Positions 14,194-45,217 of a stretch of DNA of 64,000 nucleotides are shown in pieces (the stretch's first letter is position 1; every line of letters begins with the position of its first letter). Both the position numbers and the translations under genes were made by a program. Source of the stretch: a virus; IMG/VR virus record IMGVR_UViG_3300026292_000004, positions 26,509 to 90,508 of that record; one strand, 5' to 3'. The notes under the pieces are model-generated. The model was not told where the DNA came from and searched no databases. It worked only from the letters and a program-made list of their open reading frames with translations.

Positions 14194-14201
14194 TATTTAT
14201 G
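14194..14201 (-). promoter_or_regulatory. T4-type late promoter (CATAAATA)
   Basis: The minus strand reads CATAAATA, one base from the T4 late consensus, 18 nt upstream of the ATG at 14176. It overlaps the stop codon of the preceding gene. The same variant at the same distance precedes two other genes in this block. Confidence 0.6.
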
Positions 14202-15069: not shown

Positions 15070-15077
15070 TATTTATG
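15070..15077 (-). promoter_or_regulatory. T4-type late promoter (CATAAATA)
   Basis: CATAAATA on the minus strand ends 19 nt before the ATG at 15051 and overlaps the stop codon of the giant gene. It would let the YHYH gene be transcribed separately from the 27.7-kb gene upstream. Confidence 0.6.
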
Positions 15078-18000
15078 GGGCGGGTGTACTTGACCATATG
15101 CTTGTTACAGCGAAGGTTCCAACTGTAGTACCTGTACCCGCTGGAGATGATCCTTGTCCAGGAATGTCTCCACTGTCCACGTTGGCAAGATTTTCGGGTG
15201 TTACATTAATAACATCAGTATCAACAACCTCTTCTTTATAAAGAGCTTCTTCACCGTATGCACTGAGATCTGGAGCAGTCCATTCATCAGCAACCACGTT
15301 AGTGATAGTAACACCAGGATAATTATAATTTGAACCAGGGGCGGTTGTATCTACACGAGAAACACCAACCAGTGCTTTAACTGCACCATCAAAACCAGAT
15401 GCACTGTCAACACGGATAACTGGACGTGCGCTGAATCCAGATCCAGGATTGGTTACCTGAACAGAATCAATTCTATTCTTAACGATAGCAGCATTACCTT
15501 GAGCATCACGACCAAATACAGATCCGATATACTCAAATGTTACTAGTGTATTAGAAGATTCAATGACAGCAACTTCTCTATCTTCAGTCTCACCTTGAAT
15601 GTCTAAGAGGTCACCTGCCTCAATTGGAGGAACAATCTCAGACTGCGTAACGTCAGCATCAGAACCAATGTATGCGAAACCAACGAATGTTGATCCTACA
15701 CGAGGAGTTTCTTTGAAAACGACACGAGAACCAACAAGTTCAAAACCGATTCCAGGTTGCTGAATAACACCGTTAAGCGAGATAATGATGTTGTTGTCTG
15801 CGATAATAGACTCAGTTGCCTGTACACCTTCAGTAAGTGCGATAGAGTAGAATGTACCGTCACGCTTAAGGTTGAAGGATGATCTCAATGAGTCAAACTC
15901 AAATGATATGTCATCCAACTGACGCATCTTACCTACGTAGAAACCAGTGAAGGAAGAACCAATGGTAGGTGCTTCGTTGAACTGTATGATGTCAGAGAAT
16001 GCTGTGTATGAACCAGCCGCGCCTGGAGGTTGTAGAATACCATTCACAAAGACCATCATGTGACCTTCAGGATCTGGGAAGTATGGAGTACCGTTTTGCT
16101 CAGTTAGTTTGAACTGTGTTTGTGTACCATCAAATCCAACGAACCAACGCTTAGTACGTCCTACGACATCTATCTTCTCACTAGATGCTGCTTTATATCC
16201 ATCATCAGAAATGATAGTATCATTTCCAGTAAATGTTCCAACAACATCACTTAGATACACACGATTTGTTAATCCAATTTCATCAATTCTACTGACTGTA
16301 CCGTAAGCAGTTGTAGTTGCGTTAACTGTAGTAGATACCTGACCATAAATTATTGGACTTGAAGTTTCACCTAATTGGTATTGACCAATATATTGACCAT
16401 TAGCGAATGCTGAAGATCCTATTGGTGACACGTACAAGTAATTATTTGCATCATCCCATCCAGTAACAATACCATATGCACCACCGTCAATTATTGACTG
16501 ATTATTGTTTGCTTGATAAACATACTGACCAACAGAGAAGTCAAGAGTTGCGTTAGCACCTGTGAGAGTAACACCTAAGCGTGTGTAACCCGTAGCAACA
16601 ACCTTATCACCCGTAGCAATATTTGCTGCTATTGAAGGATGCTTAGTAACATCTAAGTAAATTCTAGTAGCATCTGGGTAAACAACTGAATTCTCTTCAA
16701 ATGCACCTACGACACTCTCAGTATCAATTGTAAGTTTACCACCAGTATTATCAAGAACTGCACCTTCATTCTTATTGAATGCTACGATATCTGCCTTAGC
16801 ACCACTACTATAACCCTTGAATGAGTATCCTGCCTTCATCTCATTAACGAGATTAATAACTTGGAATCTATCAACGATAGTTTGAATACCCGCGTTAGTT
16901 AAAGTACCAACTTCAAATGTGATATTTGGAGCACCACCATTACCTAATAGTGCATCAGGAAGTGTTAATACATCACTAACACCATATCCAGTACCACCAT
17001 TAGCAATTGTAATATTAGCAGCACCTTGATCATCAACAGTTATGTTAAATGTTGCGTTAGAACCATTACCACCTGTAGCAGCGATACCATCGTAAGAACC
17101 TTGAGTTCTATTTACGTTAGCACCTGCATTTGTTAAGTTCGTAATAGATCCAACAAGGTTAGTACCACCTGCGAGAGCAGCACCAGAAGTTTGACCTGTA
17201 ATTCCTAGGTATTGTGTGAATGTACCTGCACTGATTACAACGTCCATATAACGGAAGTTATCATCAGAAGAAGTAGCATAAACAACACCTGTTATAGCAG
17301 CGTTACCAGTGATTTGTATGATTTCACCTAAAGCGAAGTCTGCATTACCACCACCTAGAGTAACTTGATCTGCTTTGAAACTAAATCTCTTAAAGATCTT
17401 AGCAATTCTTGCTTCGTTACTTGTAACTTTCTCAATTTCAGCATAACTATCAGATCCAACAGCATAGAAGTGATCAGAACCAACTATTTTTTGTCCAAGT
17501 CCTACAGGAACGTTTCTAGTACCACCAGCCACGTACGTAGTTGTTGGAAGTGTTACACCAACATAACCAGTTTGTTGCTCATAGAAACTATCATCTACAA
17601 GTTGTGACTTATAAAGTCTGATAGTATTCTTGATACGGAACATTACTTCAGGTGTATCATAGTATATGTTCAATTCTGGTTTGTAAGCAGGTATTGTTCC
17701 AGAATCAGGAGCAGGATTAATCAAATTATTATTGAGTTGCTCCTCAACAAAGTCCTCAAATTTATCAAGAATATAGTTCTTAATATTAAATTCATCAGAG
17801 ATATAGAACTTCTCACCAGCCTCAGACTGATAGATGTCTAGGAATCCCTTATTAAGTTTAGCACCCCAGATAAATGAACCCTTAGTACCATCACCCTCAG
17901 AACCACCACCAGCTAAAGTACCAGTATTATTGAGCATGTATTCCTTCATAGTGATAGTAGAAATACCGAATGGAACACGAATTGTTATGAATGGTCGGAA

Positions 18001-21000
18001 CCAACCAAATCCATAAGGTTTAACACCCCAGTATGTTCCCTTCATACCATTTGAATCTGAACCATCACCAACAATTACGTTACCGTTAATGAATAGTGAA
18101 GGACCAATAGCACCTGTTACTGCATCCCATGTAAATTCTGCCTTATCGGTAGCACTCCATGAAATACTATGACGGAACTTATAATACTCATCTTGCTTAA
18201 CAAAGCAACTGAATGTATATTCCTGATAGGATAGTGAAGAACCTTCGTCAAACTTGTTGATAGCATCATCAAATTTGATTGTGTCCTTATCAAAGGTATC
18301 ATATGTTGGTAGTGTAAATTCTCTTTCAATTACCTTAGCACTAGTATTAGCACCAGGAATATACTTGTCAGCAGTCATAGTGCCGTCTGGTGCAACACCT
18401 ATATCATTAGAAATAGTACCACCAGTTACAGTCCAACCACCAGCATCAAAAGTCTCTCTTTGACCACTTGGCCAGATATTATCTGATTGAGTCTCACCTG
18501 AGACTGGTGATTGTATTAGACGTATATTTTTTAATGCTGCGGTATTGTTGAGGGTAGCAGTAGTTACTGGACCTTCAATACATTCTTCATCAGCACTCGT
18601 AAATGTATGAGTGAAATCACCACCAGTTTGTATCGCATTAATAGCAGCACTTTGTCCAGCAACAAATGTATGTGGGTACTGATCAGCAGTAGCAGCAATA
18701 CCAACATTAACAATAATAGTACCATCTTGCTTCTTAATACCGTTAGGTGTACATGTTACGTACGTGTGTAAAGAAGTATCAGGTGAAGCACCAATATTAA
18801 CAGAAAGCTGATCAGCACTAATGATTGTAGGTTCTAACCACTTTTGACTCCAAGGATCAGTTGATCTTGGATAAGCATGAACACTAATCTCATTATCTAA
18901 CTGACACTTGAATGTGATTGCTCCATCCTCAAATTTAATCAAATCACCAGCAGAAAGACCGTGGTTGTTGATGTCAAGTGTTAATATACCATTATTAGGA
19001 TTATATGAAGCAGTATCAGGATCATCTACATTATCTGTACCTACTGATTTAATGTTAATTGACTTATTATAGAATGGGTCAGTTGTACGTGGGTATGTTT
19101 GGTTACCACCACCTTGAGTACAAGTGAATGTCAAACTATTAGGTGCAAGTCTAATACTAGTACCAGCAAGCAATCTATGACCAGTCATCACTGCACCAGG
19201 TAGACTGGAAGCATATGTATGAGATAATGGTACGCTAATAGCACCCTGACCACCGTTAACGTTAACTGTAATAGTTGTAGAACTAGTTCCTGTAATAGCG
19301 AGTCTGTTCTTGGCAGCATAATCTATACCACCTACAGCACGAGAACCAGTTAATCTAGGATACGCAGATTGAGTTTGATTACTTTGTCCAACATCAACAG
19401 TAACAGTTGTTCCAGTTACAGCATCAATTGATAATATTTGTCCAGATGCAGGGTCGGAAGAACGAGGATAAGGGTGCTGTGTAGCATGACTATCAGCATC
19501 GCAAGTAAAGATGACTGCCTGATCATCAATCTCAAGAGTATCAGAAGTAGTATAACTATGAGATCCAATCTCCAATACTAGAAGTCCAGTAGCAGGAGTA
19601 TATGTTGTACCAGCAGCAGCAGTCTTTTGACTTAAAGTTCCACCAACATCAAAGGTTAATCCATTAGTTACACCAGTAACAAATGTATGAGTACCTGTTG
19701 CAGCAGCACAAGTAAAGGTGAGAGATTCTGGTTTAAGACCAATGGTATCATCAGTAGTCAATCCATGATTAAGACCAACAGTCAACTCCATATCACCACT
19801 TGTGGCATTGTATGTTGCGTTAGTTACATCAAGTGCCCCAACTGTCAACTCCATATCACCAGTAGTATGGTTATAATCAGCAGCAGTAGGAGTATAAGTT
19901 CCAGCAGTTGTCTTACCAACATCAACCGTAATAGTATTTGTGGTTACAGATTCAACAGCAATATCTTTCTTATAGAATGGATCAGTTGGTCTTGGATATG
20001 AATGGTAACTACTATCATCATCCATTGCACAAGTAAATGTCAATGAATTTGGTTTGATTTGAATTACATCATTCTGTTTCTGGAGACAATCACTAAGTGC
20101 TGTCTGGAAAGTATGAGCAGTAGTGTTAGAAGATATTCCTACATTAACCACAAAAGTATTTGTAGTTACTCCTGTAATAGTCAACCATCTACCACTAGCA
20201 GGGTCAGATGATCTTGGATAAGTCTTAGTTACACTATTGTCTTGAGCACACTTGAATGTTAATGAATTATCATCAAGTTTAATCTTATCACCATTACTAA
20301 ATCCATGACCACTTAAAGTGATAGTCATTGCACCTGTAGCAGGTGTAAAGGCAGCACCAGTTGGTGTATGCTTAGTATATGGTGTCATTCCATGACCAGC
20401 AATGGTCAGTACCAATTTACCTGTTGAAGGAGTATATGATACATTAGTTGGACTATAAAGTGTACCAATTAAATCAGGTGTAGAAAGTAAATCATAGATT
20501 GCATCATCTTTAACCTGAGTTAAGAATGCAGTTTCTTCTTCCTCTTCCCAAACTCCACCCCAGTCAGCGATGGTAGAAGACCTAATCTCTTCTTCAAAGT
20601 ATTCATCACCAACAAGTATTTGTAGTGCTGATTCACGACCTTGCTTACCAGAAGGTACAAGAATCTCAATTATAGTTTCAATTAAAGTATCAATAGCAGA
20701 TTGAACATTAGCACAATCTTGAGCAGTATAATCAGTACTATAACCATCATCCTGAGAATCAGTTATAGTTAAATCTGTAACAGCAGGAATTATGTTTTGA
20801 TCAGTAAATCTACCAACATAATGTTCTGGAGATAATTGACCAGCACCAGTACTCTGAAGTAAGTTATTAACTGCTTTCTTACAAAGGAATCCTACTCTTT
20901 CAATTGCCTCAGCAGTTTGAGCAAGTTGATCTTCAACCTGTACAATATTTTGAGATGTATCAAGGAACTTCTTAGCAGCTTCTACAGAACTGTAGTTACC

Positions 21001-24000
21001 ACCAACAAGAAGGTCAGAAGCAATAGAGTCAACAATAAGAGTCATATCTCTGACACACTTATTCTTACCGTCAGTATCGCCACCTGGATAATTAAATACT
21101 CTGACATCATTACTACCAGCATCCTGATAAGTAAATTTCTCTTGCATTAAACCAACTGCTTCATTACCAATGTAATCCTTGTTAAAGATCATCAAATCAG
21201 CAGCATCAGCATATCTATCACCAGTTGGTGAAAGAGTACTATTCATTAAAGTAATAAGAGTATCAATAGAGGTTTTAACATTAGCACATCCACCACCATC
21301 AACAGTAATTCCAGCAGGAGGAATAATAACATTAGTAGAGTAATTAGCAACTAGAGTTCCGTCAATTGCTGCCTTAGCATAGAATGCTAAACGCTCATGA
21401 GCATATAGTGATTGTAGAAGTTGTAGTCTAATGTGAAGTATCTCACCATTAGAACCAAGATAGAATCTAAAGGCAGTAACAGTATTTGCATTACCACCAT
21501 ACTCTAAATCTTCTGCAATAGCATCAAGAATTAAACCAAGGTCAGTCTTACAACGTATTGTACCAAGACCAGAAGCACCACCTTCGTTTCTAGGCATATC
21601 CTGTACAAGATCAGGATAGCGATTAAGCATATCACCAGCAGTCTCGTCAACAATAACAGTTGCATTAGCACGAATTAGATTCGCGGCATCCTTATATCTG
21701 TTAAGTGCATCTGGATTTAATTGATTACTTACAAATAAGTCATCATCTGGGAATTCCTTATCACAAGTAAATTCACTAGTAACATAAGCATCAACTACAC
21801 CACCACCAGTTTCACTAGTAGGAGCAGTTCTAGTTACAGTACCAAGATGATCACTTGGTGTTAATGAATCTGCATTAAAGATAGTATCAGAAATAATACC
21901 AGTGTATGTTGTGATAGCAGTTGCTACATCCTGACAATAAGGATTAGCGGTATCTGTAGTGATTGTATTATCAATTACCTGCTCATAACCATGATCACCT
22001 GTGATTGATATAGCGTCTCTACGCATCACATTGATCATGAAATCACGAACCTTACCAATTGCCCATACAGTCTCACCCTCTTCACCTGAAATATGATTAA
22101 TAAGTATATTATTAGTATCTGCACGATTAACATAATATGCAGCAGTATCCCAAGACTTACTGTTACCTTCGTTACGAAGATCATAGCATATTGCCTTAAC
22201 CCACTCCTTAGCATCTCTAACACACTTAGAGAATGATGGATGAGTTCTTTGAATAAAGTTAACTGAACTTGGATATTCAATTGTTCTTAAAGCACCAGGA
22301 TCAGATAAAGTATCTGTCACGATCTTCATCAAAGCATCAAGACGTGCATTTGCTTCAGGATATCCACCATAAACGAATGGAATATTTGAATTAGTTTGCT
22401 GAATTTCACCGTGAGAAGTAATTGCATTATCTTCAGAACTTACAAATGTATGTGCATAACCACCACCAGTCTTAACAGCACCAGCAGCAGCACTCTGGAA
22501 TACATGAGTATAGTTACCACCAGCAATTACAGCACCAGCAGATGCACCGATGAATGTATGTGCTGTAGGTGAACCTACAGAAGTAATTGGTTTTACATCA
22601 ACTGTAATAGTTCCAGTCTGTGTCTCAAGACCATTAGATGAAGCACTTATAAATGTATGTTCAAAATCTCCAATACTAGTTTGACCAACTTGAACATCAA
22701 ATGTATTATCAGTTATATTACTGATTGCTGTCCACTTATTACTAATAGGATCATTTCCTCTAGGATAAGTATGAAGTGTCTGATGTAAATCTTGATTACA
22801 TGTAAATGTTAATGAGTTATCTAATATTCTAATCTTATCTTGATCAGTAAATCCATGATTAGCAATAGTTAGTCTTAAAATACCAGTAGAAGCAGTATAT
22901 GTTGCACCTGTTACTGTGTGCTGGTTCTTACCAATAGCAGTAATAGGAAGTGCTCTCTGCCAAGCATAGTCAGCACCAGATGGTGTACCACCACTGTAAC
23001 TAGAACCTGTGCCACGAGGATATGCAACCTGTACAGGTGAACCACCGTAAGTACACTGGAATGTTAATGAACTATCTGCTAGTTTAATACTCTGTGCTTC
23101 AATTAAGTCATGAGTTCCGATATTAAGTACCAAATCACCAGAGGTGAAGTTATAAGTTGCACCAGCAACATCATATAGAACTTGAGGTGATGCACCAACA
23201 TTAACTGTAATTTCACCAGTCTGCTTCTTAAGAGCATTACCTACACAACTGTTAAAGGTATGAACAGAAGTATCTGGTGACTTACCAATTTGTATGTCAA
23301 ATGTATGTGTTGTTAGGTTCTCAATTGGGATCCACTGAGATGCAGAAGGATCTTTTGGTCTTGGATATGAATGATATGAAGTATCACCATCTAACTTACA
23401 AGTAAACTTCAGAGCTTCGTTATCAAGTTTAACCTGATCACCAGCAACCTTAATACCATTAGAAGCAGAAGATTGCCATACATGAGTATAGTTTCCACCA
23501 GTTCTAACAACAGAAGTTAGAATACTATTGTTTACAGCATTAACGAATGTATGTGTATAGTTACCACCACTTGTTATAGCATTAGATGAAGTACCACCAA
23601 CCCATGTATGTGTTGATACGTTAGAAGAAATACCAACGTTAACAGTAATAGTTGTACGAGTTACACCATCAACATAGATTGTTCTATCATAGTATGGGTC
23701 TCTCTGAATTGAAATACCATTTGCAGTAGCAGACTCAAATATATGAGTATCTGGGTTTGTAGAAGGTGCAAGATCTAAAACTTGAACTTTAAACGTAGTT
23801 GAAGTTACATCAAAAATTGGTAACCATCTACCACTAGCATAATCACTTCCACGAGGATATGAGTGGTTAGTAGCATTACCATCCTTAGCACACTTGAATG
23901 TTAATGAATTATCTGCGATCTTAATCTTCTCACCATACTTGTAACCATGAAGAGGTACAGTCAATGTCAAATGTCCTGTAGCAGGATCATATGATGCAGT

Positions 24001-36000: not shown

Positions 36001-39000
36001 CTTAGGATCCCAGAAATTATAACTGGTTGCAGTAAAGTTAGTAACTTTGTCTACAGCAAGTTGGAATTGTTGTGCTTCACAATGTGCAATAGCAAATGAC
36101 TTCTGAGGACTAGTATTAGTAGGTGCAACCTCTAAAAGAGCATAGAATTTACCATTATCAGGATTATACTTAATATCTGCTACTTTTTCAGAAGAATCGG
36201 TACTAGCGATCTTTCTCTTTTGTTGAATAAGAAGGTTTTCGTTGAATACAATCAAGAAAGCATCATAAGGGTTAGAAGTGTTAGTATTGGTATAACCACC
36301 CATACAGAACTTATTTTCACCAACCTTAGTAAGTGCAGTTACTATATCTTGACGAGTAGAACCTGAAATACCAGCAATTTCCTTCTGATACTGTATTCCT
36401 ACATTAGCACCACCTGAAGATTGATTGAACTTCATCAAAACAATATCAGGGTTGTAGTTAATATTGAGTGAATTTGGTTTTGTAGTACCACTTACATATA
36501 CATCTTGAGTATCACTAGTAATATCAACATATATTGCAGCAAAATCACAATAAGTATCTTGACCACTTGGTTGCTCAGATCTAGCAGTTTTAGACCAAAT
36601 TAAGTCTCCAGACTGAGAATACTTAGCAACATAACCTACTCTGTTGTTATATTCATCTAATGTATTACCACAAACGTAATAATCCTTAGTAGAATTATCA
36701 GTGAATATAGAATTGGCAACAGTATTCTTTAAATTATTTGTATTGTTAAGGAAGTATTCTGCCTTCTTAAATGACTGAGGATGTGAAATTACTAATTTTG
36801 GAGCAGTAGTAAACCCATTACCAGATCTAATAATATTAAATTCTGATACAGTACCATTACCAGTATCAATTATTGGAGTAATAGCAGCATGTTGTCCTAC
36901 ACCATCAATTTCAACACTAATAGGTACATCATCATTATATCCAGTACCAATCTGAGTAACATTAATTTGTTCAATACCATCAACGGCTTTAACCTTATAA
37001 GTCTCTAATTCACTTGCTGAATTTGGAGTATAATCAATAAGAACTCTATCAGTAGCAAGAAGATCATGAGGTTCAGCACATTCCACAACACCATGAGGAA
37101 CATCATCAATTAACTCATAACTGTAAGAACTAACAGATTTACCTTCAATTGTTCTAACAACAGCAGATATACCATATCCTTCAGTATCAGTGTTATCAAA
37201 GACCAAACGGTCATTAACCTGATAACTATCACCTGGGTTCTCTACAACAAATGATGAAACAGCAGCATCCTCAAATTTAGTCGTTGTTTCAACTTCAATA
37301 TCAACTTTAGAGTCAAATCTAACTTTAGGGAAGTAGTCAAATAATTCTAACTTGTTTTCTTCAAGTAAAGATCCAACATCTGTAAGTTCTTCAGCAGTTG
37401 TTGTAGTATTAGTGATTTCATAGGTAGCGCGGAAACCGACGTACTCAATGTCAGTAATATTAGCACTTTGTGAAGTTCCGTTATTATCATAAGTAAAATC
37501 TAGTCCAATATATTGATCATAAGTGCCATCAAATGCCTTATGGAAATTTTCATTAGAAATTGCTCTTACTAGAGCAGTATTAACTCCAAGTCCGTTATGA
37601 AGAACTTGTACAGTAATTGCAGTAGTGCTAGGAGCAAATTGACCGTTATTGGTAACAAATGCAGGTACAACATACTGTTGACCTTCTGCCATTGCAATGG
37701 TAGACTGATCATATGTTAACCTGAATACTCTATCATCTTGACGAGTTGCTAAACGATCTCCATTTTGTTGGTAATTAGTATCAATTACTTGGTCACCATC
37801 AGCATCTTCCCAAATTGGGTCAAATGTTAACTCTAAACCATCTTCTGTAGTTAAGAGATCAGCAGTTGCGTTAGGTGTACGTTCAACATCAATGTCAACA
37901 TTCTCATATGGGTCTCTATAACGAATAACACCAGTAGGAATATTTTGCTGAACAGCAGTTGCAGCAAGGTTCCACTTATCTACACTAGAGTTAAAACTAG
38001 GACCAATAATGTATGGGAATACTGGATTACCATCTTCAGTAGCATCAATAGTAATGAAATACCCATAAACACCTTCTGGGAATTCAGGAGTCTTACCAAA
38101 ACGACCATTATAGCGATCTAAGTCACCAACACCGAAGTTATAAGTATAATCTTCTACAAAAGTACCAGCAGGGAATGTATTAGTAGGTGCAGTTCCATAA
38201 TATGAATCTGGGATACCATCATCATTACTATCAGTTAGAATTACAGTTTCTCTACCATAAGCATCAATTGCAGGTAATACAGGACCACCAGTTCTAACTG
38301 GAACTTGATTAGTTACAGAGTTATATACTAACTCAGTTTTAAGACTATAACTAGGTTCTAAGCGACGTACATTTGAAGATTGGTCAGTAGGATCAGCATA
38401 TCCATAAGGACCATAAATTGGGTTACCATCATATGCCCATCCAAGAATAGGTGAGTGCTCAATGTTAGAAGTTGCTTCAGTTAACTTACCATTAGCATCT
38501 TCAATCAAATTATCACCAAGAACGTATCTAAGTCTCTTAGGATTGCTTAAGTGAGCATATTCACCACCATATTGGTTGTTTAGACCAGAGAAAACAGATC
38601 CTTGAGCATCATCAAGAACAGTAGTAGGAATATACCCACCTCTTGTCTCATTTCCGACTTGTAATGGTTTTTGCTCAGGACCAGCAAGGTTATAGTTCCA
38701 ATCTTGAACAGAAGCGGTAAATTTAGCATCTTTACCAACTGAACTTAGAACAATGATTGTAGTTCCTGATTCGTAGTTAATACCACGGTTACTGATAGTA
38801 ATACTTGTAACACGACCAGCATTTTCTCCATCAGTGTCAATAATTGCTTTAGCAACAGCACCAAATCCAGTACCATATATTTCTACTGTAGGAGGTGTTG
38901 TATATCCATTACCAGCGTTAATAACAGCAATTGAGATAATTCGTCCATTATTAACGATTGCTTGTGCCTGAGCACCAGTACCAGAACTTAGAGTAGCAGT

Positions 39001-42000
39001 TGGAGATGAAGTATACTCAGTACCAGCAGCAGTTATGTTAACAGTCTTAATTGGACCTCTAACAGATGCAGTAGCAGTTGCACCAAGACCACCGCCACCT
39101 ACAATAGTGATTTCTGGTTTAGATGTATATCCAGTACCACCATCATTGATTAGAACTCTTGAAACTGCCTTATTAACAACAACAGCAGTTGCAGATGCTC
39201 CAGATCCACCTCCACCAACAATAGAGACTAGAGGAGGTTCTGTATAACCAGATCCAGCAGCATCTACGTCAATTGCAGTAATAGAACCGTTAACAACTAC
39301 ATTACCTGTTGCTCCTGTACCGCCACCACCAGAAAGTGTTAAATTTGGAGGTGCAGCAGCATCATATTCAGATCCAGCAGCATCAATGCTAATAGCAGTA
39401 ACTTTACCAAATATTTTCTTTAAATCTGACTTATAAGACCATACAGAAACACCATTTACCCAAGAACCAGTTGCACCTGGGTTAATTGCGTCTTTTGTTG
39501 AAATTGTTTGAGAAATTCTTGGGAAACGAAGCAATTTACGCTGGTTTCCTGGAATAAGTGCCTGACCTTCAAATGGACCTACTTTATAGTTGGGAATACC
39601 TGATGCAGCAACATAAACGTAGTCATCATTGAAGAATGTGTTCTGAATGTTAGTAGTATAGATGCTAATAACGTTATTAACAGATTCAACGTCAGATTTA
39701 CCTCTGTTAAGGTCAACAGAGATCAAAATGTTACCTTGAGGGATTGTAGAACCAGGTTGTGCTAATTCATACTTAAATACTGTTGCAGATTCTCTAGATT
39801 GAACCAAATAGGTTCCATTGTATACAATTGGGTTTGCACCATAGATTGTTACCTGGTCTCCTACCAAAAGTCCATGTGGGTTACCACAAGTAACAGTTGC
39901 AGTCTGATTATTCAGTCCACCATACTCAATACTAGTAACAGAAACTAATTTTTTAACGTTATAGTTCCAAGTATCAAGCAATTTAGATTCTTCAGAAGCA
40001 CCTAACTTAGAAACTGTTAATTTGTCTCCAGGAAGGTAATAACTACCATCATCTGTTAAAGTTGTGTTCTCTGCCTTAACAATACCAACTAATTTAATAG
40101 TAACTTGAGTTTCTTGCCCATAGTTAACATAAACATAGAAATTGGAGGTTACTTCAGTAGCAGAATCCCAATCATCTACTACACTATTAACTGAACGAGT
40201 ACATTCAATGAACTGGTTAAGTGATTTCTCTTTGTAACGGATTAATTCATTACCTACAAGAATCTCACCGTTCCTTTCTGGCCAACCAATAGTAGAGTCA
40301 ACTGTAATAACACTATCAGTTGCACTAATACCTTCAGCAAGTTTTGTCTTGTATGGAATTGTAAATGCACCAGTAATAGTCTCTTCTGACAGTACAATCT
40401 CAAATATTTCTAATTCTGAAGTCTTAATTGAGATAAAGTTCTCAATTAGAGCAGATGCATCCGTAATATTAGGGTCTACATTATCAGAGAATTGCTGAAT
40501 TAAACCATCAGAAAGATTTGCTGCATCACCTTCAGTAATTACACAACGAAGGATAGTATCAACCTGCCAAGTAGCAGCAGATGGTTTAACAATCTGTTCT
40601 TTAGGGTAAGATACACTTACATCCTCACCATAAAGAATTTTGAACAAATATGCAATAGATTTAGGAGTTCCTTTTGCAGAATAGAACGTCCTAATGTTCT
40701 TAATAACTGTATTGATATTAATTGTATTAAGATCAATCTTAGGAATGTCTGGAAGATACTGTTCTGTGAATTTAGACAACATCTTCTCAATAAAGACACC
40801 ATCTAGACACTTAACAGTACTTGTAAGTACAGGATGAACTGCTGGATAGGTTTTATTCTCAAATATAGCATTTCCGTCTTTATCATATCCTACAAGACCA
40901 GAAACACCACGAGCACAACCAATAAACTGTGCTTTAGTATAAGCAGAACCTTCTTCTATAACTTTAAATCCAGTAACTTCACCAAATCCGACTTCAGCAG
41001 ATGCAGTAGCAGAAGGTGGTCTCTGAATTATGATTGTTGGAGGTTCAGTAATACTATATCCAGTACCAAAGTTGGTAATGTTAATATCAGTGATTTGACC
41101 GTTGAATATTGAAGCAACAGCAGTTGCACCAGTACCACCTATAAATTGACCTGAATTATCCTTCCTATTGTCTACAACGTAGATTGAAGGAATATCAACA
41201 TAACCAGAACCACCAGAAAGTAGTTCAATATCAACCACACGTCCAGTGGAGTCAACAGTAACATCAAGAATTTGAGCAGCACCTGGGTCAATTATAGCGA
41301 TTCTAGGAGCAGATGTATAACCTCTACCTCTATTAACAACACTAAATCCACTTACTGAACCATTTGTCAATGTAGCAGTAATTTCTGCCTGTACAGGATC
41401 AGCACCAGTAGGAGCATCAACATATACGGTAGGAGGAACAGTATAACCTACACCACCTGATAAAACCTCTATAGAAGCAGGATCTACACCATTATTAGAA
41501 TCAAGAGTAGGTTGACTTAGTTTACCACCACCAGGATCCTTAAAGACGATTCTAGGAGTAAATGTATAGTTACTACCTGAGTTATCTAACTCAATAGAAG
41601 TTACAGTTCCATTTTTAACTTTTGCCTTTGCAGTAGCATAAACACCACCAGCAGCAGTTGGAACCTGAATATCTACGATAGGTGGTTGTAAATCACTATA
41701 ACCAGCACCACCATCAAGTAGAGTTAAATTCTTAATACCATTTACAAGTGATTCAGCAGATGCACCACCACCAGAAGTAGTCGTAACTACAGTAACAGCA
41801 GGAGGATTGGTTAACCTATAATCTTTACCACCTTTTTTAACTTTAATACCTGAAAGTTTTCCAGCATTATCAATTTGAGCAACAGCAGTCGCTCCAGTAC
41901 CAAAACTAGTAATTGGTGCCTCAATTGACCCAAGATATGCCCTTTCATCAGCACTAGGAGCAGTTTTGAGTTTTAAAGTCTGTTTAAGTCCATCACTAAC

Positions 42001-42804
42001 AACAGAATAGTCAACATAAGGAATAAGCAGTTTATCACCAATAATAACGTTCAAATATACCGTTAAAACTGGAGTATAACTAACTTCTGAATTTTCTAAG
42101 TTAAATTCAGTCTTAGAACTGTTAAATTGACTAGCAATTGGGTCTAAAACCTGTACAGAATCCTGCAAAAATCCTTTTAAGTAGAAAATCGCAGTTTCTT
42201 CTACAGAGTCGGAAGGGTTAGGTGATCTTGGAGGATCTTGGAATATTATGTCTGTACCACTAATAGTGAAGTCTACTGTTGGAATTAGATACTTACCAAA
42301 CAGTCTTACTACAATATGATCAGCACTTGGAGGTGCAATTGGAGCATTTTCCGAAGCTAATGGAAATGACCTCTGAACACCGTTAAATGTTAAATATGGA
42401 CTCTGTAACTCAATCCACTTTTCCCTGAACTCTGGATAGGATACACCGTCTGTTAAGGAGACTTCTGGTGATTTATCTGCCTTTTCATAGTAAATAATCT
42501 CATCATTTACTAAGAGCGAACCATTACTCTCAGCAAAATCATCAACACTCTCTACAGTTATAACATCTGCCGTATTAGTAACCTCTTCAAGTAAAGATGT
42601 TTCACTTTGAATTAGGTTAAAATCATACTCGTCTATATTCAGGTAATCCCTGAACTCATTTACAATATTTTGGGGTTGACCAGTCTTTTCCTGACCCTTA
42701 TAGTAATATTGTAAGAACTTCTCAAATGCTGGATAATCAGCCCTGATAAAATCAGGCAACTGATTAAGGACATTCTGTGATACCTTATTAGTTGTACTTG
42801 TCAT
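15073..42804 (-). CDS. Giant 9,243-aa baseplate/tail protein in gp7 position
   Basis: One uninterrupted reading frame of 27.7 kb between gp6 and the YHYH gene, where T4 encodes gp7 (1,032 aa). The N-terminus (VLNQLPDFIRADYPAFEKFL) and a helical segment at about 660-750 (FYSAKGTPKSIAYLFKILYG) are of the type found in gp7-position proteins of marine myoviruses. The rest is modular (approximate residues): glycine-rich GxGYT strands 290-640, 1130-1340 and 3200-3410; YHYH-type domain lacking the tetrapeptide 1436-1612; propeller-like repeats 2010-2400; LamG-like folds 2450-2650 and 4300-4475; helical CxxD modules at 4600-4670 and 6860-7310; about 25 YPR modules 4680-6800 and 7450-8070; C-terminal NGVxQxPG strands 8830-9040. 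It probably forms a giant wedge-anchored fibre or adsorption surface. The anchor assignment is moderate; the surface role is inference. Confidence 0.82.
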   Translation of the reverse strand: MTSTTNKVSQNVLNQLPDFIRADYPAFEKFLQYYYKGQEKTGQPQNIVNEFRDYLNIDEYDFNLIQSETSLLEEVTNTADVITVESVDDFAESNGSLLVNDEIIYYEKADKSPEVSLTDGVSYPEFREKWIELQSPYLTFNGVQRSFPLASENAPIAPPSADHIVVRLFGKYLIPTVDFTISGTDIIFQDPPRSPNPSDSVEETAIFYLKGFLQDSVQVLDPIASQFNSSKTEFNLENSEVSYTPVLTVYLNVIIGDKLLIPYVDYSVVSDGLKQTLKLKTAPSADERAYLGSIEAPITSFGTGATAVAQIDNAGKLSGIKVKKGGKDYRLTNPPAVTVVTTTSGGGASAESLVNGIKNLTLLDGGAGYSDLQPPIVDIQVPTAAGGVYATAKAKVKNGTVTSIELDNSGSNYTFTPRIVFKDPGGGKLSQPTLDSNNGVDPASIEVLSGGVGYTVPPTVYVDAPTGADPVQAEITATLTNGSVSGFSVVNRGRGYTSAPRIAIIDPGAAQILDVTVDSTGRVVDIELLSGGSGYVDIPSIYVVDNRKDNSGQFIGGTGATAVASIFNGQITDINITNFGTGYSITEPPTIIIQRPPSATASAEVGFGEVTGFKVIEEGSAYTKAQFIGCARGVSGLVGYDKDGNAIFENKTYPAVHPVLTSTVKCLDGVFIEKMLSKFTEQYLPDIPKIDLNTININTVIKNIRTFYSAKGTPKSIAYLFKILYGEDVSVSYPKEQIVKPSAATWQVDTILRCVITEGDAANLSDGLIQQFSDNVDPNITDASALIENFISIKTSELEIFEIVLSEETITGAFTIPYKTKLAEGISATDSVITVDSTIGWPERNGEILVGNELIRYKEKSLNQFIECTRSVNSVVDDWDSATEVTSNFYVYVNYGQETQVTIKLVGIVKAENTTLTDDGSYYLPGDKLTVSKLGASEESKLLDTWNYNVKKLVSVTSIEYGGLNNQTATVTCGNPHGLLVGDQVTIYGANPIVYNGTYLVQSRESATVFKYELAQPGSTIPQGNILISVDLNRGKSDVESVNNVISIYTTNIQNTFFNDDYVYVAASGIPNYKVGPFEGQALIPGNQRKLLRFPRISQTISTKDAINPGATGSWVNGVSVWSYKSDLKKIFGKVTAISIDAAGSEYDAAAPPNLTLSGGGGTGATGNVVVNGSITAIDVDAAGSGYTEPPLVSIVGGGGSGASATAVVVNKAVSRVLINDGGTGYTSKPEITIVGGGGLGATATASVRGPIKTVNITAAGTEYTSSPTATLSSGTGAQAQAIVNNGRIISIAVINAGNGYTTPPTVEIYGTGFGAVAKAIIDTDGENAGRVTSITISNRGINYESGTTIIVLSSVGKDAKFTASVQDWNYNLAGPEQKPLQVGNETRGGYIPTTVLDDAQGSVFSGLNNQYGGEYAHLSNPKRLRYVLGDNLIEDANGKLTEATSNIEHSPILGWAYDGNPIYGPYGYADPTDQSSNVRRLEPSYSLKTELVYNSVTNQVPVRTGGPVLPAIDAYGRETVILTDSNDDGIPDSYYGTAPTNTFPAGTFVEDYTYNFGVGDLDRYNGRFGKTPEFPEGVYGYFITIDATEDGNPVFPYIIGPSFNSSVDKWNLAATAVQQNIPTGVIRYRDPYENVDIDVERTPNATADLLTTEDGLELTFDPIWEDADGDQVIDTNYQQNGDRLATRQDDRVFRLTYDQSTIAMAEGQQYVVPAFVTNNGQFAPSTTAITVQVLHNGLGVNTALVRAISNENFHKAFDGTYDQYIGLDFTYDNNGTSQSANITDIEYVGFRATYEITNTTTTAEELTDVGSLLEENKLELFDYFPKVRFDSKVDIEVETTTKFEDAAVSSFVVENPGDSYQVNDRLVFDNTDTEGYGISAVVRTIEGKSVSSYSYELIDDVPHGVVECAEPHDLLATDRVLIDYTPNSASELETYKVKAVDGIEQINVTQIGTGYNDDVPISVEIDGVGQHAAITPIIDTGNGTVSEFNIIRSGNGFTTAPKLVISHPQSFKKAEYFLNNTNNLKNTVANSIFTDNSTKDYYVCGNTLDEYNNRVGYVAKYSQSGDLIWSKTARSEQPSGQDTYCDFAAIYVDITSDTQDVYVSGTTKPNSLNINYNPDIVLMKFNQSSGGANVGIQYQKEIAGISGSTRQDIVTALTKVGENKFCMGGYTNTNTSNPYDAFLIVFNENLLIQQKRKIASTDSSEKVADIKYNPDNGKFYALLEVAPTNTSPQKSFAIAHCEAQQFQLAVDKVTNFTATSYNFWDPKFDIDEFGDFYVSGTAYSASNSNSIIVTKVTTSDTVVWGKRWTPTGGTTWRNLKAIGGNIDVFGQYNVACNYEVNESTAEYDAYRKQSEITKIKYDGTLISTNVVKFTRNIVGFEINDFVSDASGDPIFVGQAFRNEVIGLFNFEQTSETEPVDTTGNITNRNLIGDYYKGSNITSGAPNGKGSTGGLMIDAWDGSAWADTHFELEPGNNTGIWGFKDSFDVNGNWTIEGFFSVDESNDQQDTRLGTAGSSHHILFGVGHGNEPGITVMLNRSNKRIEMYASATTQRTAGAIASVDNVLINNVGYVHIALTKNGNVYTVYANGTQVGTGTLPGNSNIATTAKIYMGNSPNWQSASSGLTVTTAGSFNVDGFKITDRVIQVIVPSTTADFNTYLQKYTYAVDCSLILKTDKNVDTSRQGDFTGTNTTWQFNTAAYTYSNVTDQVINPGALTLAGEGLQVLDYNDANSTLVLDSVTISSTTDVWSTRTATIPAIGGRKVKATPLTWGKFYIQTVDAIQADNILKFTFNQPATFNVGSQLQQKNAGGQVIGTATIVDSDSTGVYVASYGTATDWVGWEDTGEIVSTGTEVNEIASQTFANQDHDATAGQGTFIFDIPGGLSARFKEYSINDYTVRIDATAPAGSPYIVGSVITPTSDTVSWNADRTQLTIGASPNQLTAVTQITLITNLEKIIILDDAANTDKIYFTTAEAHRHKVGDNLLISGNDLEEFNGSFNVTNVLSTRSFIVGLRAVAVGLPVAASAIDIYAKHPVLKMYYQHKYKFMLGDTSLQGYFMSFSKDNLFKLEYSFNSITRVGTPGYQVGNQPEPYVQISINNDVTNISYYFDPSKTGDTSPVDAGTYMDVVTTPYNGNFVIYSTSGGTITTGDTIFKFPLTSEPEGTAQASLVKYTTFSTKAVGPIGDIRLVNGGGFYKKLPVISQIVSNRKIERVAITEPGTEYAVGEYTGVPISGDGEGGKVNITVADGEDDEGNNIPGQIAEVIVTDPGKNYTTATIDIESITGILGAGLTGSGAELTVVIPPNGTGASVFVKADKIGKIKKLKNNNFGFDYTHDYTLRPEITFPVNVQLTSTNILDSITVTDPGSGYATPPAVIIAGGGGSGATAEASIKNGRIDAIEVKDPGAGYSSQPAVTLKSSFNYVVNLDLNLLQFSFPHGIVNGSAVTLTSNDDGSGDDPELPISSFGRLNANTTYYAISGISNSLENDQLRLAITKDNAAIGDYISYTNAGTGRQVVLTDSFGGAATANVVTGRFLAGELIYQGDTLENATATGYVSENDGWQIGPRILKIVDYTGTFSKNQIVTGTISKASGTIDNFSIAKGVLEVGAITTTPGRFVDDVGKPSEIIQKIQDSYFYQDFSYSVKAPVSISDWRDILITNVHPAGFKVFGELGLVEKSTIENKETAFELTKSVNLAESAIVPNLQNFTLVEPVYTEFDNTEVRFRQKNLTSSEQILTSTVQKINDISDQFDGEKISFGLTVQNINQDGNVVTEPVIASANQLLISLNGIVQSPGDAFTVQGSNVVFSSPPQPPANVQYSNATLEFKTLYRANLSTISGIFPLVGGTIRGIITDYEAIVVATGLTTVDFYYKTTAGQPFQVDDPATTLTYEGEAITSSATGFTANVDSIDPITNTNLFQFKEDIENLRGDNAKIERVNLEGDNGQVLTTIPAGLSASGNTFDVASGYALSKVTLTTAGTGYIDNIDGVSTSGGSGTGMTVTVDADGSGVITATKIKERGTGYALGDVITISGGGNQDATVTIVANTGGVYQIDSERFEVATIVGNTVTANRGVDGTAVVGHQTDSNVFGTTIEIGDTVLLSKTAGTYQSTAGLFDIVIGDIIIGQKSNIVAEVIGISAYRDPVTNEPNNQVIISEGSTFQGLVFNRITNINFQNVILDNVSQTQLQLTDVNDKNTEFNSKFPNSEVVSNLILEYNNAAGTFTVDEDIRNHIVNYSNISGDLIDGETVRLYKLAYDEPKVTPDGLILTGDIIRSENGTAQVIGTNYARKYLYLGKVARRSTDLHVPVAQSGAINATLQKKFGSASLYLNGSAYVSVPTSTEFGFGNGEWTVECWFYAASVTGTQHLIDFRTQASEASPCIRLDGTGLEYHVSGADVITGGTVTQNTWHHVAVSRDGNNHRMFLDGTQVGSTWSNATDYGTTKPIKVGADHAAANQFQGYVDELRVSNNKRYTTNFTNATYMHQGDINTLLLVHFDGANLSTTFQDWSGVPTWNEGDQFLTGDTTFRFFDASTEILNNVELIANEAIYQTDKEFVKLHIPHPDTEVPITYGKEFYDVINSNLDFIAAEAYDRISPEPPPGTGPIDCKDDVKDIIRNISYNLTYGFNNKTYDAAKLYVNNAKLDHLKGKESFSIRVFNEARDIAKRVINNSPVLQYNGFKASDATYEPVSGDLTVDIGKSHNFIVNSTRSNGSACVTANSLKFTCAMDGNKSEHTYPRLEDQSYLRKNAIKEVGITSHTIDNATYDPETGILQLWVPGHKFVDGNSVQILGKSLVFTCDQDDHHTDHNYPRTTDPWNGRWLKISNSNPDSFEVNVGKSLSYTFTPSAGTYDPTTGDMVLDIGTHSLAAGQTIKIQPNSLVWTCALDSNATEHTYPRTAIDTHQAASGSTYAPLTGVLDVTTAATHGMQVGDWIKFNEGAITFNCTMDGGSSNKAYPRQTDPTYDKWLQVESVPSTTRFTVNVGKSPAVNYTPTDAAYNPTTGIMELTIGTHGMVAGDAIKLAQDSLTFTCDYNNDNHATTKTYPRNNGNDSATYNTSIAITAVGDAVLTPTFADYNPNTGHVTLTIKDHPVQNGDKIKIANNALSFTCDHDNHDTVHSYPRATDESSGKWLTVFNRTPDTFDVQILASVPSTNATEHTFVSCTAGCVTGQDMTISMQVLPSAPSTDQTEHRFVSASAGAVQTGGNYTHTFVSGVADGIQQKRDKVYDTSIPIKYEGTPYTAAQSDTDYEPTTGVLTIGQTGHNFTVGEYVKIVDESLTFQCNTDSYGSNHLYPRPTDPASGQWLRIDAVATDSFDVQIGKSSDTSNHNCTAVAANGIIRRDSKITVNVGVSSNTSGHTFVRADNNCIETGTGENIEGFGVTGASYTPASGVLELTIGDHDFSVGEYVKIANNSLNFVCNHNSDNYITNKSYPRTTDPAYNKFLKITDIGTNAKTATGATYEPTTGLLTITSAAHGFVSGQRIKIVDSSIVFTCTAGGGTHAYPRSTDPISGKWITVTVVDADTFKCNVGVSSNTTVHSFDSAVANGLQYQSGIIKVNALQGTTPTNTSTHQFVNANNQYTPTDADYDPATGWMTLTLAGHTFASGEYIKVADAGLVFTCATDDNKTQHSYPRETDPFSGKWMKIGKVTTDTFAINVGITSNNTVHTFVSAVFNCVSRAVVYNGGAYNHTFKSHAPHGLLGQDGNVTFNVGASPEVGHDVSAATYTPADGNLTLNIGKHNMNVGNAIKIDTDSLTFQCNMDSQNTNKTYPRSTDPVHNTNIPITAVGQTQHTVVAGNHAFVSALSGGIRDASATGNTYTVTNAVYTAETGNLVLTVGADGTDSLAASDFINMKVSSLTMTCDLDQNATNHAYPRATDPIFTTLGTGTSDATWSRTIPITKAGNDITMNVGIGTAGTKYNPETGVLTLDIQNHGWSGPTNLTGASGTTYDPATGELSVTTTGVHSLANGARVRFEEGAFTFSCAMGSGNKTYPRKSDPTFGKWLDVDVDSTTVFKVNVGKSPLKDFHVAHAEYDHTGGDLVLEIGNHDLKVGTAIKLAKESLEFTCSNDGYATTHKYPRSTDPAYNAALNIKGVTPTTITINVNVGSGGNQFAHKFVPAVGLTPTAATYNPGNGTLQMTITGHGLESTSRIKIAEDALQFTCDMDHHETVHAYPRSTDPVANKWLDVTVVDANTITVPVGTTPLVNHDVTNAVYSPNTGEMVLTVGHNHGIKKGQGIKIGQDKLSFKCQQDATLAEPDGVTTHTYPRNTIDTSTVNTASYDPATGHLTLTVPLHGYKYGEKIKIADNSLTFKCAKDGNATNHSYPRGSDYASGRWLPIFDVTSTTFKVQVLDLAPSTNPDTHIFESATANGISIQRDPYYDRTIYVDGVTRTTITVNVGISSNVSTHTWVGGTSSNAITSGGNYTHTFVNAVNNSILTSVVRTGGNYTHVWQSSASNGIKVAGDQVKLDNEALKFTCKLDGDTSYHSYPRPKDPSASQWIPIENLTTHTFDIQIGKSPDTSVHTFNSCVGNALKKQTGEITVNVGASPQVLYDVAGATYNFTSGDLVLNIGTHDLIEAQSIKLADSSLTFQCTYGGSPVQVAYPRGTGSSYSGGTPSGADYAWQRALPITAIGKNQHTVTGATYTASTGILRLTIANHGFTDQDKIRILDNSLTFTCNQDLHQTLHTYPRGNDPISNKWTAISNITDNTFDVQVGQTSIGDFEHTFISASSNGLETQTGTITVDVKPITSVGSPTAHTFIGASAGAVIAGGNYTHVFQSAAAGAVKTGGGYAHTFVSSEDNAITSHGEIQQTNSNIPFVYGGYPEANARLDALMKIVTDTLSDPGALRTIEYPSSVNFIQRTHPSFSKCVRDAKEWVKAICYDLRNEGNSKSWDTAAYYVNRADTNNILINHISGEEGETVWAIGKVRDFMINVMRRDAISITGDHGYEQVIDNTITTDTANPYCQDVATAITTYTGIISDTIFNADSLTPSDHLGTVTRTAPTSETGGGVVDAYVTSEFTCDKEFPDDDLFVSNQLNPDALNRYKDAANLIRANATVIVDETAGDMLNRYPDLVQDMPRNEGGASGLGTIRCKTDLGLILDAIAEDLEYGGNANTVTAFRFYLGSNGEILHIRLQLLQSLYAHERLAFYAKAAIDGTLVANYSTNVIIPPAGITVDGGGCANVKTSIDTLITLMNSTLSPTGDRYADAADLMIFNKDYIGNEAVGLMQEKFTYQDAGSNDVRVFNYPGGDTDGKNKCVRDMTLIVDSIASDLLVGGNYSSVEAAKKFLDTSQNIVQVEDQLAQTAEAIERVGFLCKKAVNNLLQSTGAGQLSPEHYVGRFTDQNIIPAVTDLTITDSQDDGYSTDYTAQDCANVQSAIDTLIETIIEILVPSGKQGRESALQILVGDEYFEEEIRSSTIADWGGVWEEEEETAFLTQVKDDAIYDLLSTPDLIGTLYSPTNVSYTPSTGKLVLTIAGHGMTPYTKHTPTGAAFTPATGAMTITLSGHGFSNGDKIKLDDNSLTFKCAQDNSVTKTYPRSSDPASGRWLTITGVTTNTFVVNVGISSNTTAHTFQTALSDCLQKQNDVIQIKPNSLTFTCAMDDDSSYHSYPRPTDPFYKKDIAVESVTTNTITVDVGKTTAGTYTPTAADYNHTTGDMELTVGALDVTNATYNATSGDMELTVGLNHGLTTDDTIGLKPESLTFTCAAATGTHTFVTGVTNGLTFDVGGTLSQKTAAAGTTYTPATGLLVLEIGSHSYTTSDTLEIDDQAVIFTCDADSHATQHPYPRSSDPASGQILSIDAVTGTTVTVDVGQSNQTQSAYPRLTGSRAVGGIDYAAKNRLAITGTSSTTITVNVNGGQGAISVPLSHTYASSLPGAVMTGHRLLAGTSIRLAPNSLTFTCTQGGGNQTYPRTTDPFYNKSINIKSVGTDNVDDPDTASYNPNNGILTLDINNHGLSAGDLIKFEDGAITFKCQLDNEISVHAYPRSTDPWSQKWLEPTIISADQLSVNIGASPDTSLHTYVTCTPNGIKKQDGTIIVNVGIAATADQYPHTFVAGQSAAINAIQTGGDFTHTFTSADEECIEGPVTTATLNNTAALKNIRLIQSPVSGETQSDNIWPSGQRETFDAGGWTVTGGTISNDIGVAPDGTMTADKYIPGANTSAKVIEREFTLPTYDTFDKDTIKFDDAINKFDEGSSLSYQEYTFSCFVKQDEYYKFRHSISWSATDKAEFTWDAVTGAIGPSLFINGNVIVGDGSDSNGMKGTYWGVKPYGFGWFRPFITIRVPFGISTITMKEYMLNNTGTLAGGGSEGDGTKGSFIWGAKLNKGFLDIYQSEAGEKFYISDEFNIKNYILDKFEDFVEEQLNNNLINPAPDSGTIPAYKPELNIYYDTPEVMFRIKNTIRLYKSQLVDDSFYEQQTGYVGVTLPTTTYVAGGTRNVPVGLGQKIVGSDHFYAVGSDSYAEIEKVTSNEARIAKIFKRFSFKADQVTLGGGNADFALGEIIQITGNAAITGVVYATSSDDNFRYMDVVISAGTFTQYLGITGQTSGAALAGGTNLVGSITNLTNAGANVNRTQGSYDGIAATGGNGSNATFNITVDDQGAANITIANGGTGYGVSDVLTLPDALLGNGGAPNITFEVGTLTNAGIQTIVDRFQVINLVNEMKAGYSFKGYSSGAKADIVAFNKNEGAVLDNTGGKLTIDTESVVGAFEENSVVYPDATRIYLDVTKHPSIAANIATGDKVVATGYTRLGVTLTGANATLDFSVGQYVYQANNNQSIIDGGAYGIVTGWDDANNYLYVSPIGSSAFANGQYIGQYQLGETSSPIIYGQVSTTVNATTTAYGTVSRIDEIGLTNRVYLSDVVGTFTGNDTIISDDGYKAASSEKIDVVGRTKRWFVGFDGTQTQFKLTEQNGTPYFPDPEGHMMVFVNGILQPPGAAGSYTAFSDIIQFNEAPTIGSSFTGFYVGKMRQLDDISFEFDSLRSSFNLKRDGTFYSIALTEGVQATESIIADNNIIISLNGVIQQPGIGFELVGSRVVFKETPRVGSTFVGFAYIGSDADVTQSEIVPPIEAGDLLDIQGETEDREVAVIESSNTLVTFEYIGSVFGRDAQGNAAIVKNRIDSVQVTNPGSGFSARPVIRVDSASGFDGAVKALVGVSRVDTTAPGSNYNYPGVTITNVVADEWTAPDLSAYGEEALYKEEVVDTDVINVTPENLANVDSGDIPGQGSSPAGTGTTVGTFAVTSIWSSTPAP
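18590..20460 (-). repeat. Second block of YPR modules
   Basis: About five further copies of the FxC...YPR module (encoded at about 20215, 20000, 19460, 19090 and 18865), plus one degenerate YPR copy lacking the FxC strand near 19360. They lie C-terminal to the helical region of the giant protein. The module pattern is the same as in the first block. Confidence 0.8.
20870..21060 (-). repeat. Helical CxxD module, copy 4
   Basis: Encodes a helical segment beginning CVRDMTLIVDSIASDL, then GGNYSS, and ending in a Cys/Lys-Lys-Ala helix (FLCKKAVNNLL). It is similar in layout to three other segments of the giant protein. Confidence 0.6.
21360..21553 (-). repeat. Helical CxxD module, copy 3
   Basis: Encodes a helical segment beginning CKTDLGLILDAIAEDL, then YGGNANTVTAF, ending RLAFYAKAAIDG. 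It has the same layout as the other copies in the giant protein. Confidence 0.6.
22010..22230 (-). repeat. Helical CxxD module, copy 2
   Basis: Encodes a helical segment beginning CVRDAKEWVKAICYDL, then NEGNSKSWDTAAYYV, ending with a basic helix (MINVMRRDAI). It separates the two YPR blocks together with copies 3 and 4. Confidence 0.6.
22400..28770 (-). repeat. First block of about 20 YPR modules
   Basis: About 20 protein-level repeats of roughly 70-110 residues. Each has a strand (TGxLxLxIxxH), a GxxIKI turn, a strand ending F-x-C, a short acidic loop with Asp and His, the tripeptide YPR, often TDPxxxKWL, and a V-x-V-G-x-S strand, frequently followed by an HTFVSA..NGI strand. The copies differ at DNA level, so this is an old, selected expansion rather than a recent tandem duplication. 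Confidence 0.85.
28805..29004 (-). repeat. Helical CxxD module, copy 1
   Basis: Encodes a segment beginning CKDDVKDIIRNISYNL, then TYGFNNKTYDAAKLYVN, ending ARDIAKRVINNSP. It lies directly before the first YPR module and matches copies 2-4 in layout (Cys, acid pair, long helix, Gly-Asn turn, Ala-rich helix). Confidence 0.6.
29380..29905 (-). other. LamG-like domain 2 of the giant protein
   Basis: Residues about 4300-4475 read as a concanavalin A/LamG-type jelly roll: GSASLYLNGSAYVSVP, WTVECWFYA, WHHVAVSRDGN, MFLDGTQVGS and a closing YVDELRVSN. This matches the LamG_3-type pattern and suggests a carbohydrate-binding or structural lectin fold. Confidence 0.7.
34850..35460 (-). other. LamG-like domain 1 of the giant protein
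   Basis: Residues about 2450-2650 carry the same jelly-roll landmarks as the second domain: WTIEGFFSVDES, HILFGVGHG, YVHIALTKNGNVYTVYANG and VDGFKITDRV. It follows a segment with propeller-like repeats (VSGTAY, DFYVSGT, GDPIFVGQA). Confidence 0.65.
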
Positions 42805-44798: not shown

Positions 44799-45217
44799 TA
44801 TTCCGCCCGTTGTAAAATAAAGTCTATAGTCTGCGTTAGAGGTTGACCGACAATACGATATTCAACGTCTACTCGTAGTTCATGATAATCATCTAGTGCT
44901 GTTATCTCAACACTAATAACTTCTACCCTAGGTTCAAAATTCCTAAGAGTATTAGTAATCTCATCTTGTAATGTATCAACTGTAAATGCATCTAAAGGTT
45001 CAAACAATAATTGATATACTTTAGAACCAACCTCTGATTGAAATAATTTCTCTCCTGGTGATGTTAGAACTAAGTTTTTCATTGCTTGTTTAATGGCAGC
45101 TGCATTCTTCAAAACAATAAGGTCTTTCGTAACTGGATTCTTTGCAAATGAATTTGCAAGATCCTGAAAACTACGAGAGACCTTAAGGTTCTTTGATGTT
45201 ATTGTCTTTAGTGCCAC
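44798..45217 (-). CDS. 25: Baseplate wedge protein gp25
   Basis: A 139-aa protein of the gp25/T6SS TssE family: VTKDLIVLKNAAAIKQAMKN, then the diagnostic GEKLFQSEVGSKVYQLLFEP and the late EYRIVGQPLTQTIDF strand. It joins sheath and baseplate wedge next to gp6. The start is GTG at 45217; it overlaps the SET-gene stop TAG by one base, which fixes this start. Length matches T4 gp25 (132 aa). Confidence 0.93.
   Translation of the reverse strand: MALKTITSKNLKVSRSFQDLANSFAKNPVTKDLIVLKNAAAIKQAMKNLVLTSPGEKLFQSEVGSKVYQLLFEPLDAFTVDTLQDEITNTLRNFEPRVEVISVEITALDDYHELRVDVEYRIVGQPLTQTIDFILQRAE

Follow-up and report, generated by a model that had tools for sequence, protein, structure and literature searches.

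Directly downstream of the baseplate wedge gene gp6, at the position that gp7 holds in T4, a metagenomic virus contig carries a single open reading frame of 9,243 codons. Is a frame of this length real, is its product a gp7, and what would a phage baseplate do with so long a chain? We addressed these questions in a window of 64,000 nucleotides, which is a portion of the 90,508-base virus contig IMGVR_UViG_3300026292_000004 (positions 26,509 to 90,508).

One conserved reading frame directly after gp6

The source phage is a marine cyanomyovirus (Kyanoviridae) that is known from metagenomic contigs only. A tblastn search with residues 1-2,000 of the product of the long frame, referred to below as the giant, matched 474 phage records, nearly all of them from Synechococcus or Prochlorococcus phages, and the best matches of these first 2,000 residues were to S-SSM4 (75%) and ACG-2014d (72%). 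The baseplate genes of the window are as follows.

44798..45217, minus strand: gp25 baseplate wedge protein
42825..44798, minus strand: gp6 baseplate wedge protein, adjoining the giant gene upstream
15073..42804, minus strand: giant gp7-slot protein, a probable baseplate wedge protein, 9,243 aa (phrog_701, phrog_18802)
14197..15051, minus strand: YHYH protein, 284 aa
12992..14176, minus strand: gp9/gp10-N baseplate wedge/tail-fibre connector
9551..12988, minus strand: baseplate wedge-type protein with YHYH, 1,145 aa (phrog_708)
7986..9518, minus strand: gp8 baseplate wedge protein (PF09215)
517..7971, minus strand: VrlC-type protein, 2,484 aa (phrog_358, DUF4815)

The giant frame spans 27.7 kb, opens with an ATG and contains neither a stop codon nor an N over its 9,243 codons, which occupy 43.3% of the window; the calculated mass of its product is 990 kDa and the pI is 4.7. 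Given the base composition, the log10 probability of 9,243 stop-free codons is approximately -269. A sister gene of 9,242 aa, also without a stop, lies on a second IMG/VR contig, IMGVR_UViG_3300020470_001313 (150,607 bases). The two copies are 93.7% identical at the nucleotide level and differ by a single 1-codon indel, with two C-terminal residues unmatched in the alignment. Against this sister copy, the giant gene has an overall dN/dS of 0.177, with values of 0.05 to 0.26 for the individual 500-aa blocks, repeat arrays included, and Tandem Repeats Finder detected no DNA-level tandem repeats in the gene. Because the sister copy is intact, dN/dS is low and DNA tandem repeats are absent, a frameshift or repeat-expansion artefact is excluded for practical purposes. 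These results show that the giant gene is a single reading frame, conserved and subject to purifying selection. The original prediction of a single open frame filling 43% of the window thus stands, with exact coordinates, an independent copy and a dN/dS of 0.18, and the frameshift split that it had weighed against itself was not found. That the length is an artefact of assembly or annotation, with neighbouring genes fused or a repeat falsely expanded, is scarcely credible: the source is metagenomic and the protein is repetitive, but the independent contig reproduces the length to within one codon, purifying selection extends throughout, and isolates carry orthologues of 6-7.3 kaa, and we rejected an assembly artefact on the intact independent copy together with the lack of DNA tandem repeats. 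As a side observation, the giant frame of one relative (IMGVR_UViG_3300021368_002493) is reported with an internal TAA (6,404 aa), which may reflect an error of sequencing or a gene that is split.

The frame had been placed in the gp7 slot by its flanking genes. This slot, after gp6 and before gp8, is supported, with one correction: gp6 is the direct upstream neighbour, and gp8 is the fourth gene downstream of the giant, separated from it by the genes for the 284-aa YHYH protein, the gp9/gp10-N protein and the 1,145-aa wedge-type protein. The order gp25, gp6, giant, gp9, gp8, VrlC is common to S-SSM4, ACG-2014d, P-SSM4 and S-SM1. In the first two of these the YHYH gene also follows the giant, and it is missing from the other two. 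The 284-aa YHYH protein aligns to residues 1-283 only of its 590-aa counterpart in S-SSM4, and on the sister contig the corresponding stretch is 98% identical, with a similar gap to gp9. Since both contigs share this stretch and a similar gap, the C-terminal half of the YHYH gene seems to have been lost in the lineage. The GIY-YIG nuclease gene at 51291-52262 (plus strand) is the sole sizeable recognised plus-strand gene in an otherwise minus-strand region and is possibly a homing endonuclease.

Relation of the core to gp7

Within the giant we distinguish the following parts.

37825..42804, minus strand: N-terminal region, residues 1-1660, conserved (57% identity to the orthologue of S-SM1)
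39445..41007, minus strand: gp7-like core, residues 600-1120, with profile matches to S-SM2 gp7, S-CREM2 ORF122, Melnitz gp161, phiM7 gp92 and T4 gp7
40612..40698, minus strand: gp7 signature at residues 703-731 (with FYSAKGTPKSIAYLFKILYGEDVSV), which align to residues 733-759 of T4 gp7
38041..38577, minus strand: YHYH domain, residues 1410-1588 (PF14240, E 2e-25)
34948..35346, minus strand: LamG/concanavalin-like domain 1, residues 2487-2619
29413..29832, minus strand: LamG/concanavalin-like domain 2, residues 4325-4464 (E 1.2e-19)
22675..28785, minus strand: YPR array A, residues 4674-6710, 20 of the 26 copies, each of ~80 aa; forms the main insertion when compared with S-SSM4 and ACG-2014d
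20455..22257, minus strand: helical-looking region (judged by eye), residues 6850-7450, conserved in relatives and lying between the two YPR arrays
18781..20454, minus strand: YPR array B, residues 7451-8008, 6 of the 26 copies
15232..16899, minus strand: conserved C-terminal region, residues 8636-9191, 54% identical to S-SM1

A direct phmmer search of the N-terminus against the PDB returned nothing useful, and gp7 was reached by an alignment profile only. This profile covers residues 600-1120 and was built from 40 sequences. When it was searched against 177,635 PDB sequences, two matches were obtained at E<=1, and both are baseplate wedge protein gp7 (T4, E = 0.0033; a KP1-type phage, E = 0.0013), aligned at gp7 733-760. 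At a search space of 100,000, the profile matched the gp7-slot proteins of S-SM2 (1.6e-37), Melnitz (3e-18), S-CREM2 (1.9e-17) and phiM7 (1e-14), and T4 gp7 (0.004). Once S-SM2, S-CREM2, Melnitz and phiM7 had been added to the profile, the value for T4 gp7 became 0.0003, and decoys stayed at E>=80. Only ~28 residues of T4 gp7 itself are matched, with moderate significance. The giant and T4 gp7 also share the signature FYSxKGxxxSxxxLFKxLYxExV, and PHROG 17744 matches both proteins. The Pfam gp7 helical domain, domain V and domain VI were not recognised in the giant, while T4 gp7 matches all three. An AlphaFold model of the core reached a pLDDT of 56. Its top Foldseek match was a 1,031-residue chain of a phage baseplate entry that holds gp7, a ranking that we do not count as evidence because of this pLDDT. 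Overall, these searches support a remote but specific homology between the core of the giant and gp7, and the remainder of the chain does not appear to be a T4-type gp7. The expectation that the N-terminus would look like gp7 is borne out in so far as the core profile matches only gp7 in the PDB, but the signature lies at ~660-760 and not at the extreme N-terminus; likewise, the profile search of the N-terminal part reaches gp7 through the core, but not through the three Pfam domains. The helical domain of gp6 (PF21379) is presumed to be the partner of the giant in the core bundle.

One paper states that cyano- and pelagimyophages lack gp7 and have VrlC in its place (PMC7029224). We rejected VrlC as a gp7 substitute, given that the core profile matches gp7 and not VrlC, which scores like a decoy (E ~1.9e3). 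The claim that gp7 is missing and VrlC stands in for it is thus not supported by our searches, and the literature is in conflict with sequence evidence that puts a gp7 core in the giant.

The giant is an extra-long addition to a known family (PHROG 701/T4-GC969 and related clusters) that is found in nearly all viruses of marine cyanobacteria. It lies directly after gp6 and has both profile and full-length similarity to the gp7-slot proteins, and the P-SSM4 orthologue is already annotated as gp7, 'baseplate wedge initiator'. Proteins encoded at the same locus measure 896 aa in Melnitz, 1,006 in phiM7, 1,032 in T4, 1,937 in S-CREM2, 3,007 in S-SSM6a, 4,156 in S-SM2, 4,454 in P-HM2, 6,064 in S-MbCM100, 6,114 in S-MS29, 6,180 in S-SM1, 6,198 in S-ShM2, 6,283 in QB2, 6,405 in S-RIM50, 6,603 in S-TIM4, 6,817 in ACG-2014d, 6,932 in S-SSM4, 7,041 in S-E7 and 7,312 in P-SSM4. 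Open frames of the family in IMG/VR reach 9,131, 8,458 and 8,359 aa, and many others end at contig ends. At 9,243 aa the giant is the longest among the ~90 members checked, yet it is not out of line with its family. The original prediction had called a protein of this size exceptional in phages, which does not hold at the gp7 slot of marine cyanomyoviruses, where 5-9 kaa is the rule and such proteins have been annotated for years. Within T4-like phages, then, one virion locus has grown from ~0.9 to 9.2 thousand residues with its wedge core still recognisable. T4 gp7 is nine times shorter than the giant and is without LamG, YHYH and YPR modules. Within the Kyanoviridae, S-CREM2 ORF122 and Melnitz gp161 have the slot and the core of the giant but not the long modular extension.

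Modules outside the core

The giant matches PHROG 701 (a 6,136-position profile) across its N-terminal, middle and C-terminal parts. The proteins of P-SSM4, S-SSM4 (CYXG_00059) and S-SM1 share with it the locus, the neighbours and the YHYH, LamG and C-terminal regions and are homologous over most of the length, but are ~1,900-3,000 residues shorter. Those of S-SSM4 and ACG-2014d are 68-69% identical to it, and SSM1_102 of S-SM1 aligns at residues 1-1695 (57% identity), 1806-3936 (45%) and 8636-9191 (54%). Over four phages, conservation is high at residues 500-1500, 3000-3750 and 8750-9150, whereas the YPR arrays show almost none. The N-terminal region (1-1660) contains ~12 copies of a Gly-rich 'GxGYtxPP' repeat of ~45 aa, and across the giant ~19 matches to this repeat fall mainly at 300-620, 1130-1340, 3350-3450 and 4000-4055. 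No NCBIfam family scored above its cut-off in the giant. The LamG and YHYH domains of the original prediction were confirmed as two LamG domains and one YHYH domain. YHYH has been predicted to be a tail-associated metal hydrolase (PMC7824862). We predict that the two LamG domains, the YHYH domain and the YPR modules are carbohydrate-binding or adhesin-type modules, as in tail fibre and receptor-binding proteins.

This baseplate cluster contains three proteins with a YHYH domain, all encoded on the minus strand: the giant, the 284-aa protein and the 1,145-aa protein. They cross-match one another's PHROGs, which suggests that the YHYH domain may have been duplicated within the cluster.

The extra length of the giant relative to S-SSM4 and ACG-2014d consists of YPR arrays (residues 4668-6801, 7475-7576 and 7678-7874). 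The giant has 26 copies of the YPR motif, compared with 11 in P-SSM4, 8 in S-E7, 5 in S-SSM4, 3 in ACG-2014d and 2 in S-SM1, and on both the source contig and the sister contig every copy lies within the giant gene. The best partner of each YPR module of the window is found in another phage (43-77% identity) and not in the window (35-55%). The modules have diverged, and each resembles its counterparts in other phages more than the rest of the array; the array is therefore old or has been exchanged, and a recent tandem duplication, which we also considered, is not supported. Among phage records, YPR modules occur in cyanophages and marine viruses only, in the gp7 slot and in annotated tail-fibre proteins. 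The P-HM1 'YapH/tail fiber' and the Sf-CH1b tail fiber protein carry the same ~80-aa module family; unlike the giant, tail-fibre proteins of the P-HM1 type are encoded by separate genes and not by the gp7-slot gene. The modules thus lie in a tail-fibre gene in P-HM1 (GU071101.1 81240-82205) and in a gene annotated as baseplate wedge subunit in MED4-213 (NC_020845.1 53460-66836), as if they moved between fibre and wedge genes. A model of a YPR double module is all-beta (pLDDT 83.6). A fold search of the PDB with this model gave no significant match, the weak ones including the first catalytic-cysteine half-domain of E1 and the phi92 endosialidase (E 0.4-0.7); good fold matches in BFVD were to cyanophage proteins only.

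Virion status and a possible wedge-plus-fibre role

A proteomic study of purified S-SM1 virions reports multiple peptides of T4-GC969 (Sullivan et al. 2010, PMC3037559), which in the S-SM1 record is SSM1_102, a protein of 6,180 aa encoded directly after gp6. Similarly, S-CREM2 ORF122 (1,937 aa), which carries the gp7-like core, is described as a virion protein with 91 unique peptides (PMC10665884). The detection of these two homologues in virions supports the original prediction that the giant is a virion protein, by orthology.

We propose that the giant is probably a wedge protein of the baseplate in which the lateral part has expanded into a long modular structure, for which an appendage role is our inference. 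Residues ~600-1120 would occupy the wedge next to gp6, as gp7 does in T4, and each virion would have six copies, one in each wedge. The remainder of the chain would form a modular arm off the lateral face of the baseplate, composed of the Gly-rich repeats, the YHYH domain, two LamG lectin-like domains and ~26 all-beta YPR modules. This arm may make early contact with cell-surface polysaccharide and substitute for gp11, the short tail fibres and similar peripheral proteins of T4, and the number of YPR copies, which varies between lineages, would set its reach. We found no match to the gp11 family in the two contigs of the source phage, ACG-2014d, P-SSM4 or S-SM1, with a T4 positive control that worked, and a tail-collar family search, run without a T4-like positive control, returned nothing in these records. 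Cyanomyoviruses have been reported to be without g10, g11, g12, g34, g35 and g37 (PMC2984593). The gp7-like part of AlgoCIS, which is a related contractile injection system, is located laterally and binds the tail fibres, and it has been called a 'hotspot' for re-engineering (PMC8894135). A lateral arm fits AlgoCIS, the lack of gp11 matches, the reported absence of these T4 genes and the hydrolase prediction for YHYH. The fused baseplate anchor and fibre of the original prediction is plausible, although it is one that we infer.

We regard a more complete version of this proposal as possible rather than probable: an uncut chain of ~1 MDa (six per virion, ~6 MDa) would act as wedge and fibre together, with the gp7 core as its anchor and an arm that extends to the host, its length adjusted as YPR modules are gained and lost, and would replace the separate peripheral baseplate and short-fibre proteins of T4. 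If this is true, such a single-molecule chain would rank with the longest proteins encoded by tailed phages. The giant also makes it testable how some of the most abundant ocean viruses contact their hosts without a recognisable gp11.

Alternatively, a gp7-derived wedge protein could be cut after translation, so that only an N-terminal piece is retained in the wedge while the others become separate fibres or are lost. A chain of ~990 kDa is unusually long, proteolysis is frequent in phage assembly, and the published mass spectrometry data show presence and not intact size. We nevertheless consider this unlikely. Searches of the giant revealed no protease or autoprocessing domain, and orthologues preserve both termini, a pattern that a single functional chain would be expected to show, though it is still compatible with cutting. 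It is quite unlikely, moreover, that the giant serves chiefly as a long adhesin or tail fibre and occupies the gp7 slot by chance, with VrlC filling the wedge role. LamG, YHYH and YPR modules are characteristic of proteins that contact receptors, and VrlC has been proposed in place of gp7 (see above), but the core profile points to gp7, and the smaller relatives encoded at this locus (896-1,937 aa), which are nearer to gp7 in size, have the same core.
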